A stretch of DNA of 64,000 bases from an uncultured Polaribacter sp. GTDB lineage: Bacteria; Bacteroidota; Bacteroidia; Flavobacteriales; Flavobacteriaceae. The translations under genes were made by a program, and so were the position numbers. The notes under the pieces were generated by a model. The model was not told the DNA's origin and made no database searches. It worked only from the letters and a program-made list of their open reading frames with translations. The stretch lies in NCBI GenBank assembly GCA_943788865.1, contig CALSRX010000001.1, forward strand, positions 124,001 to 188,000. The letters are read 5' to 3'. Every line of letters starts with the position of its first letter. Positions within the stretch are counted from its first letter, which is position 1. Shown piece after piece: positions 55,235 through 57,131 of the stretch.

Positions 55235-56305
55235 ATGGCTCTCAAAAAAAAATCTGCACTTCAAGAAAAACAAGGCGTTCTTCAGCCAGAAACTACCAAT
55301 AGTTCTGCTGCACAACAAATTAAAAAAAGCAGAAGTAAACAATTTTCTGTAGATGATTTTGTAACAAAAATTATTGCGGGAGACATTCCTTTTTTAAGCA
55401 GAGCAATTACTTTGGTAGAAAGCACCAATGCAGCACATCAAGAAAAAGCCAACCAAATTTTAGAACGTTGTTTGCCTTATGCAAATACATCTGTTAGAAT
55501 CGGAATTACCGGTGTACCAGGGGTTGGTAAAAGTACCTTTATAGAAAGTTATGGCAAACACTTAACCCAGCAAGGAAAAAAAGTGGCGGTCTTGGCTATA
55601 GACCCAACAAGCTCTGTAAACAAAGGAAGTATTTTAGGCGATAAAACCCGCATGGAAGAATTGGTAACAGATGCAAACGCGTTTATTAGACCTTCGCCTT
55701 CAGGAACGTCTTTAGGAGGTGTGGCACAAAAAACACGCGAATCTATTATTTTGTGCGAAGCAGCAGGTTTTGATACCATTATAATAGAAACAGTGGGCGT
55801 TGGACAATCAGAAACGGCGGTACATTCTATGGTAGATTTCTTTTTGTTGCTAAAAATTGCTGGTGCTGGCGATGAACTGCAAGGCATAAAAAGAGGAATT
55901 ATAGAAATGGCAGATGCCATAGTAATTAACAAAGCAGACGGAGACAATGTGCAAAATGCCAAGATTGCGAAAACAGAATTTAACAGAGCCTTGCATTTGT
56001 ATCCTCCAAAAGAAAGTACGTGGCAGCCAAAAGTACTAACCTGTAGTGCTATAGAACACAGTGGAATTACCGAAATAGACAGCATGATTTCTGAATACAT
56101 GCAACTAACTACAAAAAACCACTATTTTACAAAACGCAGAAACGAGCAAAACATGTATTGGTTAAAAACCAGCATAGAACAACAATTAAAAGAAGCATTT
56201 TACAGCAATAAAAAAGTTGCCAAACAATTAGAAAAAGAAATAGAAAAATTAGAAGAAGGGAACACCACACCCTTTAATGCTGCCAAGCGGTTGTTAAAAT
56301 TATAA
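55235..56305 (+). CDS. meaB: MeaB/ArgK-type GTPase of methylmalonyl-CoA mutase
   Basis: The 356-residue P-loop GTPase has GVPGVGKST (about 92-100), the DPTSSVNKGSILGDKTRM switch region, ETVGVGQSE and the base-specific NKADG. This family protects and loads cobalamin-dependent methylmalonyl-CoA mutase. The mutase subunits are not in the window. It is divergent from the truncated sigma gene with 99 bases between. Confidence 0.93.
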   Translation: MALKKKSALQEKQGVLQPETTNSSAAQQIKKSRSKQFSVDDFVTKIIAGDIPFLSRAITLVESTNAAHQEKANQILERCLPYANTSVRIGITGVPGVGKSTFIESYGKHLTQQGKKVAVLAIDPTSSVNKGSILGDKTRMEELVTDANAFIRPSPSGTSLGGVAQKTRESIILCEAAGFDTIIIETVGVGQSETAVHSMVDFFLLLKIAGAGDELQGIKRGIIEMADAIVINKADGDNVQNAKIAKTEFNRALHLYPPKESTWQPKVLTCSAIEHSGITEIDSMISEYMQLTTKNHYFTKRRNEQNMYWLKTSIEQQLKEAFYSNKKVAKQLEKEIEKLEEGNTTPFNAAKRLLKL

Positions 56306-56413
56306 CTTTATTTAAAAAATAAACTGTAATTTTAAACCGAATACACAACCAAAAAGTAACTTTATCCGGAAAATGGAACGGGATAACAGGATAAAATGTA
56401 ATTATATAACCAG

Positions 56414-57126
56414 TTATGGGCAAGTTTAAACGACATAGTAGACAAACAAGAGAGCCACCGAAAAACGGAAACGACTCATCATAACAGCATAAATTTGCTG
56501 ACTGAAAAATAGTGGAGACTAGGAACCACTATAAAAACGGGGCATATTCTGAAAAGCCTTACGAGTAGGAGAAATGTTAAATTCAAATAAAATGAAAAAA
56601 GTAATGACAATTTTCGGAGCAATGTTTATTGCTTCAGTAATTCTGACAAGTTGTAGTAATTATGGGAAAGAGAAGAACTTTAATGGTGTACAACTTTTTT
56701 ATACTTCTAATATCACTGAAACAGAAGCTAATTCAATGGGTAATTATTTAATAGAAAGTGAGTTTGCCGATGGCGAGGAAAAAACAGTGCAATTAAATAA
56801 ATCTGGTAATACATACGAGTTTAGAATGGTTGTTAAAAAAGGAATTGAACAAGACTCGGAATACACGGAGTTAGGTAAGTTAATGGCTGCGGAAATTTCA
56901 TCTGAAGTATTTAATGGAGGGCAGGTTGACGTCCATTTTTGTGATGAAAACCTTAAGACTCTCAAAGTATTACCGATGTCTACATACTAACTAACCAGCC
57001 CATAACAGCGTGTATAAGAAATAGCGGGTTCAGTGCTAAATCAAAGGTCTGTGCTTTTAATAAAAGTAAGTACCAGCTTGAAAGTAAAGTGCTTTTTAAT
57101 CCGCTACTTCTCATACACGCAAAACG
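56414..57126 (+). mobile_element. Candidate integron-type gene cassette (713 bp) with one lipoprotein gene
   Basis: The presumed cassette begins right after the G of GTTATGGGC (56413-56421) and ends at the G of ACGTTGGC (G at 57126). GTTATGGGC is the exact reverse complement of GCCCATAAC (56998-57006), which begins the terminal hairpin. In integron cassettes the first bases of the cassette and the left core of its attC site must be complementary in the circular form, because recombination splits the attC at G^TT. It carries one gene in the expected orientation. No integrase gene or attI is seen, so it would be an array-less relic. Confidence 0.5.
56574..56990 (+). CDS. Lipoprotein of unknown family, carried in the candidate cassette
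   Basis: The 138-residue product (start 56574, or 132 residues from the ATG at 56592) has a lipoprotein signal with VILTSC as lipobox and a beta-rich body (FNGVQLFYTSNITETEANSMGNYLI...VDVHFCDENLKTLKV). I do not recognise it. AGGAG at 56566 precedes the first ATG closely. The gene sits alone inside a 713-base cassette-like unit and has no obvious promoter, which would fit cassette genes that depend on upstream transcription. Confidence 0.7.
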   Translation: MLNSNKMKKVMTIFGAMFIASVILTSCSNYGKEKNFNGVQLFYTSNITETEANSMGNYLIESEFADGEEKTVQLNKSGNTYEFRMVVKKGIEQDSEYTELGKLMAAEISSEVFNGGQVDVHFCDENLKTLKVLPMSTY

Positions 57127-57131
57127 TTGGC
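56998..57131. repeat. Candidate attC-like hairpin site
   Basis: Left core GCCCATAAC (56998-57006), right core ACGTTGGC (57124-57131). Between them 57008-57030 and 57098-57120 form 21 pairs including one G-T wobble, interrupted by two mismatches, around a 67-base loop; GCGTGTAT pairs perfectly with ATACACGC. The layout (outer conserved cores, inner imperfect palindrome with few unpaired bases) is that of an attC recombination site. Confidence 0.55.

Follow-up and report, generated by a model that had tools for sequence, protein, structure and literature searches.

The putative cassette and its parts

The 64,000-nucleotide stretch of DNA analysed here (the window) comes from an uncultured Polaribacter whose assembled genome comprises 2.37 Mb in 5 contigs and is 91.6% complete. 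A GTPase gene (55235–56305), presumably of the MeaB/ArgK kind, lies 5′ of an attI-like landing site on the plus strand (56350–56413) that repeats elsewhere in the genome and that we call family A. This site contains an inverted repeat (TTATCCGG, 56362–56369, and CGGGATAA, 56379–56386), then ATATAAC (56404–56410), CA and G^TT, and the flank ends at G56413. What we read as a gene cassette follows on the same strand (56414–57126), from the TT past the inferred cut (G^TT) to the last G preceding the next TT; the position of this cut in the window is inferred from empty and filled sites of a second family, family B, described below. Within the cassette, cmscan finds a DUF805 RNA motif (RF03081; 56507–56575, plus strand) at 77.1 bits, above the gathering cut-off of 51.1, so that membership in this RNA family is met, and we presume that it forms the 5′ leader of the cassette gene. 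That gene, an open reading frame at 56592–56990 (plus strand; an alternative longer start is possible at 56574), encodes a 132-residue lipoprotein-like protein of unknown function, for which we found no Pfam match (E ≤ 0.01), no NCBIfam match above cut-off and, own copies apart, no homologue among the loci compared. The unit closes with an attC-like hairpin (56998–57131, plus strand) that comprises the core R″ GCCCATAAC, two long arms and the core R′ GTTGGC.

At the junction of landing site and cassette, GTTATGGGC (56413–56421) is the exact reverse complement, over 9 bases, of GCCCATAAC in the hairpin (56998–57006); over ten bases the match is 9/10. An initial annotation, made from the sequence alone, had pointed to this complementarity and to the ACGTTGGC with which the hairpin ends (57124–57131), and both observations hold, as does its remark that the window is without an integrase. 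The hairpin folds better than shuffled sequences on both strands (z −3.1 for the top and −3.7 for the bottom strand). Our covariance model R1, built from 35 hairpins including this one (alignment A3, for which 18 of the 53 rows of A2 were dropped by hand as badly aligned or redundant), scores it, as one of its own training rows, at 112 bits on the bottom strand, and finds no further hairpin in the window. We also considered as a second cassette the unit from 57127, which encodes an alpha/beta hydrolase, and rejected it: there are two partial R″ matches within 7 kb, neither of which precedes a recognisable hairpin.

BLASTN with the window hairpin, with at most 4 candidates scored per genome, gave matches at E ≤ 0.001 in 69 of 199 genomes of the family, our own included. 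The best matches outside our genome, at 87–88% identity, lie in three other genera (G111, G099 and G085), which suggests that cassettes move between genera. At the same place in a further genome, G321, we find the same 5′ flank, a neighbour gene 97% identical to ours and a different cassette start; the contig stops about 97 bases past the landing site.

Hairpins, cores and integrase loci

R1 finds 13 hairpins in our genome at E ≤ 1.3e-5 and one more at 0.29, on all five contigs; four of the 13 are training rows, and 12 score at least 70 bits. Nine lie at family-B sites, two at family-A sites (the window and C2:39k, where C2 is a contig), one behind an integrase gene and one (C2:190k) without a recognised site. 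The split core recurs elsewhere in the genome: start and hairpin agree at 10/10 for C2:39k and C2:123k, at 9/10 for C3, C2:206k and C4:699k, and at 8/10 for C4:21k. The cassettes encode different genes. The one at C2:39k (L010:3424–3846) codes for a VOC protein with a sub-threshold likeness to fosfomycin thiol transferases (best score 38 bits, cut-off 180), and at C5:365k (L011, minus strand) a family-A site is followed by a seemingly broken cassette with a degraded hairpin of 24.7 bits. Three DUF805 RNAs in the genome are above cut-off (L009:4253–4322, L008:3734–3805 and the one in the window); all lie in cassettes near their starts, and this RNA may be a cassette-borne leader that lets cassettes regulate themselves. 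The idea that it is instead part of the recombination site was rejected: it also occurs outside cassettes, for example in gene clusters of G002, and R1 finds no hairpin in these loci outside cassettes (L054 and L055).

A tyrosine recombinase gene lies on contig C3 (L009:4513–5676, minus strand), followed by TATATAACTA^GTT and then by a cassette that starts with GTTTGCATTA, continues with a DUF805 RNA and a gene, and closes with a hairpin. The R″ of this hairpin, TAATGCCAAC, matches the cassette start at 9/10, and this is the only cassette behind the integrase in our genome. The initial annotation had described the window cassette as lone and the system as perhaps relic or integrase-free. The cassette is actually one of about a dozen placed singly in the genome, and the recombinase on C3 removes the integrase-free alternative; present movement in the species is not shown. 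It had proposed looking for IntI-type recombinases; the one on C3 is a tyrosine recombinase that has both an attI-like core and a cassette next to its gene, and the IntI-specific domain is missing from it. Any of three outcomes would have refuted that annotation (no second copy of the hairpin in related genomes, no integrase in the species, or a hairpin conserved at one locus only in all strains). Given the further hairpins in our genome and across the family, the C3 recombinase and the other cassette start in G321, all three fail, which supports the earlier reading as largely right but too modest.

Matches to our recombinase at E ≤ 1e-100 occur in 50 of 116 same-genus genomes. In our reading of the 30 best same-genus loci, 28 have ATATAAC-N2-GTT after the recombinase stop codon (L180 has GCT for GTT, and L181 is without the core), with a distance from stop codon to core of mostly 18–27 bases, and of 24 in 15 loci. 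Among 80 named loci, the best 26 (L239–L264, L239 being a duplicate of G303) all show the same core; their genera include Hanstruepera, Winogradskyella, Aurantibacter, Subsaximicrobium, Lutibacter, Bizionia, Christiangramia, Mesonia, Psychroflexus, Xanthomarina and Zunongwangia. The first cassette's R″ matches at 9 or 10 of 10 within 4 kb in 17 of these 26, and 6 of the remaining 9 have fewer than 200 contig bases left. For the other 54 named loci, 14 had no ORF and were left out, and 40 are without this form of core, as are five same-genus loci with recombinases about 40% identical to ours (L234–L238). Some of the 40, with 35–39% identical recombinases, still precede arrays with matching cores (L267, a Chitinophaga MAG; L275, Flavobacterium limicola; L301, Xanthomarina), and the bases after the stop codon in L236 are those of L268, from Polaribacter vadi, which has ATATACGAGTT and three hairpins; this points to Polaribacter as the probable genus. 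Loci L227, L228 and L230–L233 were excluded for lack of an integrase ORF.

Three side observations concern these loci and their spread. One genome (G001) has two very similar integrases about 110 kb apart (L214 and L215), each with its own attI and array. In L173, L176, L191, L193 and L195 the integrase gene stops only 150–620 bases short of where the contig does. Assemblies that break at repeated hairpins would give this picture, and arrays in short-read genomes may stay hidden. Finally, Winogradskyella phage Peternella_1 (L437:3257–4133) has three hairpins of the R1 family, of which one is strong (81.6 bits) and two are weaker, and a plasmid of Chryseobacterium sp. SNU WT5 has one after a sulfite exporter gene (L436:2147–2273) and, elsewhere, a 40% identical recombinase; routes for transfer therefore exist.

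To count hairpins in arrays we used a script that looks for AAC...GTT with pairing arms and makes no use of the bases beyond AAC and GTT; hairpins were counted only at a stem score of at least 28 and a size of 112–128, and neighbours only if less than 4 kb apart. It finds 289 hairpins after integrases in 95 loci, versus 6 in the reversed sequence (760,946 bases), and the size from AAC to GTT is 120–123 in 258 of them. R′ matches the R″ of the next hairpin at 9 or 10 of 10 in 148 of 217 neighbouring pairs, versus 3.4% of random pairs, and the two cores of the same hairpin match in only 18/289; in the 69 pairs below 9 of 10, missed hairpins, false hairpins and decay were not separated. The geometry that the initial annotation had likened to the split core of integron attC sites is thus found both in other cassettes of our genome and in the arrays of relatives and is, as far as sequence comparison can tell, that of cassettes that were circular before insertion.

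The arms also indicate which strand is kept. Among the mismatches in 271 different hairpins, 697 are A·C on the gene strand, which on the bottom strand are G·T wobbles, versus 43 that are G·T on the gene strand; this lean is seen in 61 of 62 loci, and 266 of the 289 hairpins are more stable on the bottom strand. Double changes occur in 15 of the 16 stem pairs in the alignment of 35 hairpins. To judge from this conservation alone, the hairpin is maintained as a fold of the bottom DNA strand, like that of attC. These numbers bear directly on the possibility that the hairpin is a transcribed element of the lipoprotein gene, either a terminator or a structured RNA, and that the matching ends are a by-product. 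Its position directly 3′ of the stop codon, with the DUF805 RNA upstream, is what such an element would have, but in a conserved RNA the wobble bias should run the other way, and the mostly sense-strand A·C mismatches are not kept as RNA pairs. Cassette start and hairpin core, moreover, change together, and the window hairpin matches no Rfam family up to E = 5, so we give this explanation practically no credence.

Dispersed landing sites

The flanks of other cassettes in our genome define the family-B site, which is about 78 bp long and has the form ...TTGTTTCTAAACT..ATAACTTCGCTAACT.CTGATATAAATCATTAAAACG..T.ATATCA....^TTAGCGAAAC. From 11 sites of our genome we built a sequence model of family B (R2), so that its hits on these 11 are by construction; it matched 13 of 36 genomes, all of them within the 22 same-genus genomes, with 97 matches in total (13 in our genome, 15 in G020, 17 in G015 and 13 in G001 among them). 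We read 47 of the 97: 13/13 in our genome, 14/15 in G020, 9/13 in G001, 8/17 in G015 and 3/6 in G021. One downstream hairpin at E ≤ 0.01 is present at 29 of the 47 sites (20 of 34 outside our genome), in the same orientation in all 29, and no site has two within the 5–6.5 kb read. A cassette start complementary to the downstream hairpin sits at the site end in 23 of the 29, and in 22 the flank past the hairpin is complementary to the R″ of the site at 6 or 7 of 7 bases, the other 7 being lower or unscorable. Seven family-B sites look empty, four flagged by script (L411, L413, L399 and L420) and three by our own reading (L400, L401 and L434); another 11 of the 47 are neither clearly filled nor empty, some of them starting like a cassette without a recognised hairpin. 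Our genome has 9 filled, 2 empty and 2 unclear sites.

Comparison of orthologous places supplies the junctions. L411, in our genome, is empty, whereas its G020 orthologue L402 holds about 1.0 kb extra between flanks that are 72–82% identical; the insert starts at ...TTAAAG^TTAGCAAAC and ends at ...CTCG^TTAGCGAATC, with the junctions at G^TT, and the left half of the L402 site has some 20 additional bases. The upstream neighbourhood of L363 is 81–86% identical in G020, G021 and G001, and these four genomes have four cassette starts there; the right flanks agree only in pairs. For L359/L398 and L008/L404, flanks on both sides are conserved (85–88%) and the contents differ, with no hairpin recognised in L404. 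It remains conceivable that the cassettes are real but fixed, the scattered copies being old relics that no longer move in this lineage. The single cassette behind our integrase and the broken look of C5:365k would fit such relics, but different starts at one place in four genomes, empty and filled alleles elsewhere (although between species) and the high scores of 12 of the 13 hairpins would not, and we regard this possibility as unlikely without setting it aside.

The same sites speak to whether the units could be other transposable elements (MITE or IS200-like) that are moved by a transposase, with the nearby recombinase incidental. Scattered single copies with hairpin ends are, as a matter of general knowledge, also typical of small transposons, and a recombinase of this family is missing from some genomes whose sites are filled. 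Here, however, only one end of the unit bears a hairpin, the genes differ between the cassettes of our genome, units enter a conserved site at N^TT, and arrays begin behind a recombinase gene; although transposases were not searched for, we find this origin extremely unlikely.

Two of the empty sites have strong single-strand folds (z −3.6 to −6.0) in which the halves of the R core are paired. An insertion separates these halves, and our inference is that filling a site ends its use as a substrate; this would explain, but has not been shown to explain, why there is one cassette per site. A search for empty mini-sites in a selection of loci gave two chance-like matches, and a genome-wide pattern search gave 12 matches versus 2 in the control.

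The family-A site in the window, with its inverted repeat and then ATATAACCA^G, is unlike family B. It is repeated in our genome at C2:39.3k and C5:365k and resembles the attI beside the integrase of G278, where a copy sits no more than about 100 bp past the integrase gene; in the genus, 20 of 116 genomes have it at E ≤ 0.01, and 7 of these reach E < 1e-8. We saw no family-A copy without a cassette, and that family A takes cassettes like family B is inferred. Among 30 loci searched by way of the neighbour gene, three (L159, L162 and L166, in G270, G305 and G015) have a family-B site at that place.

Taken together, we consider it very probable that the gene cassette in the window is mobile and belongs to an integron-like recombination system of Bacteroidia, in which the C3 recombinase would join cassettes at G^TT. 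In the mechanism that we infer, the tyrosine recombinase coded on C3 would recognise the bottom strand of the attC-like hairpin, and a circular cassette, composed of gene and hairpin, would be joined to an attI-like site by exchange at G^TT; once inserted, it would show the R′ core at its start and the hairpin at its end. Many relatives have their cassettes stacked behind the attI beside the integrase gene, and our genome has most of its cassettes singly, one to each dispersed landing site. Split-core complementarity, arrays behind the integrase, bottom-strand conservation and empty as well as filled sites are seen in the genomes compared, all at the level of sequence; that the C3 integrase does the recombination work is inferred without a recombination assay, and that folded single-stranded DNA is the form used is likewise inferred.

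The recombinase and comparison with known systems

By our tally over the 22 same-genus genomes, a recombinase reaching E ≤ 1e-70 occurs in 11 of the 13 genomes that have family-B sites and in 3 of the 9 that have none. The two exceptions, G015 and G004, weigh against the simple reading. G015, a 99% complete assembly of 2 contigs, carries 17 family-B sites (L166 and L424–L431 are among its loci), several of them filled, and a best recombinase match at E 5.9e-28, the level at which Xer-like proteins also match; G004 has 4 family-B sites and a best match at 1.5e-30; and G321, 85% complete, has five family-A sites and no recombinase match at 1e-20. In these three the integrase may have been lost, it may act from elsewhere, or another recombinase may be at work; our own reading is loss after insertion.

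Sequence and predicted fold place the recombinase in the Xer/IntI kind (the model of the L239 protein has pLDDT 83 and pTM 0.54). A profile of 21 integrases aligns to IntI4 (2A3V) at 9–182 and 242–317; between these blocks IntI4 has 59 residues versus 16 in the recombinase, and the gap covers the IntI-specific part. Against TIGR02249, our recombinase leaves positions 180–237 unmatched and misses the cut-off, so the IntI-specific domain is not met, and a pattern for IntI spacing gives 100 residues in the canonical L319 versus 58 (only 1 of 12 canonical proteins was usable, so that we rely on the profile alignment). At the N-terminus, about 90 extra residues precede the core-binding domain (L009 residues 1–90); they are present in aligned relatives, have no Pfam match and, in the model of the L239 relative, are predicted to form strands and helices. 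A likeness of this stretch to a HARP-type domain was considered and dropped. Our tree groups the six IntI rows in a clade of their own, on a long branch whose position relative to the recombinase clade is unsure.

An ordinary integron cassette, with canonical IntI and canonical attC, could have landed in the window without any special flavobacterial system: the geometry and bottom-strand bias are as in attC, and other classes of the phylum often have canonical IntI (105 of 395 genomes of the phylum are above the TIGR02249 cut-off). Among the matches listed, however, only one (G369) belongs to the same class and none to the same order or family. The canonical core consensus is not met either, GTTRRRY fitting only 19/289 R′ cores and RYYYAAC 17/289 (GTTR fits 285/289), and R1 has no match in 12 canonical IntI loci with flanks of about 1.5 kb, which is a short test. 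We judge such a landing very unlikely, and because the IntI-specific domain is absent and GTTRRRY cores are few, we do not file the system we favour, the integron-like one of Bacteroidia, as a canonical integron.

We found no prior description of such a system, which does not exclude one, since subscription journals and preprints were not covered. Bacteroidota are among the phyla with integrons (PMC8618304), one complete integron, in Salinibacter ruber, is named for Bacteroidetes proper (PMC9024848), IntI is identified by a profile of its specific domain (PMC9668308) or intI selected by the additional domain (PMC2426708), and attC models cover 11 taxa, none of them Bacteroidetes (PMC8352920). 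With one Bacteroidetes integron named and IntI sought by its special domain, a cassette system present in many flavobacteria would then have gone unnoticed. The IntI insertion is also described as not fully conserved in an integron-like subgroup yet essential to the working of integrons (PMC8138268), and its absence from our integrase speaks against the explanation that we favour. Polaribacter phage P12002L has an attC that was tested with IntI1 (PMC9892861); we do not use it as proof, since R1 finds no match in this phage up to E = 1 and its sites thus look to be of another type.

A broader interpretation is that Bacteroidia have their own integron line, driven by recombinases without the IntI-specific domain, and that, in this genus, the integron is chromosome-wide, with cassettes entering singly at a repeated family of sites that would fold as a mini-attC only while empty and would be inactivated by the insertion itself; this may well be right, but we hold it only tentatively and do not quite lean towards it. 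The integron-like cassette system as such would call into question whether cassette recombination depends on the extra domain, and would show clean one-by-one insertion of genes at many reserved chromosomal places.

Among known systems, XerA and other Xer recombinases (NF040815; 5HXY, 4A8E) give the best sequence and fold matches to the recombinase family, but the family scores below the NF040815 cut-off (201 and 217 versus 220 bits) and adjoins attI and arrays. Cassettes inserted outside the integron recall insertion at attG (Loot et al. 2024, Nat Microbiol, a reference in PMC11023631), where attG are reportedly simple genomic sites; the sites described here are instead a conserved family of about 78 bp that folds like a small attC, and none that we read has two hairpins. 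CALINs, attC clusters without an integrase (the term follows PMC9024848), likewise have attC-bearing cassettes away from an integrase gene, whereas here single cassettes lie in repeated sites and the integrase is elsewhere in the genome. The chromosomal integron shares the integrase beside attI, cassettes of a gene plus terminal hairpin, split R cores, G^TT and the bottom-strand hairpin; it differs in that the recombinase here is without the IntI-specific domain and has about 90 extra N-terminal residues, that R cores are rarely GTTRRRY, that many single cassettes lie outside an array and that the integrase points the same way as the cassettes. Of the canonical features, an attI beside the integrase is met in 28/30 same-genus loci and in 26/26 of L239–L264, and a cassette array with complementary starts is met in relatives, our own genome having one cassette. 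That the window holds a gene cassette of an integron-like system is well supported by sequence comparison, with the mechanism itself inferred; though not a canonical integron, the system would work like one.
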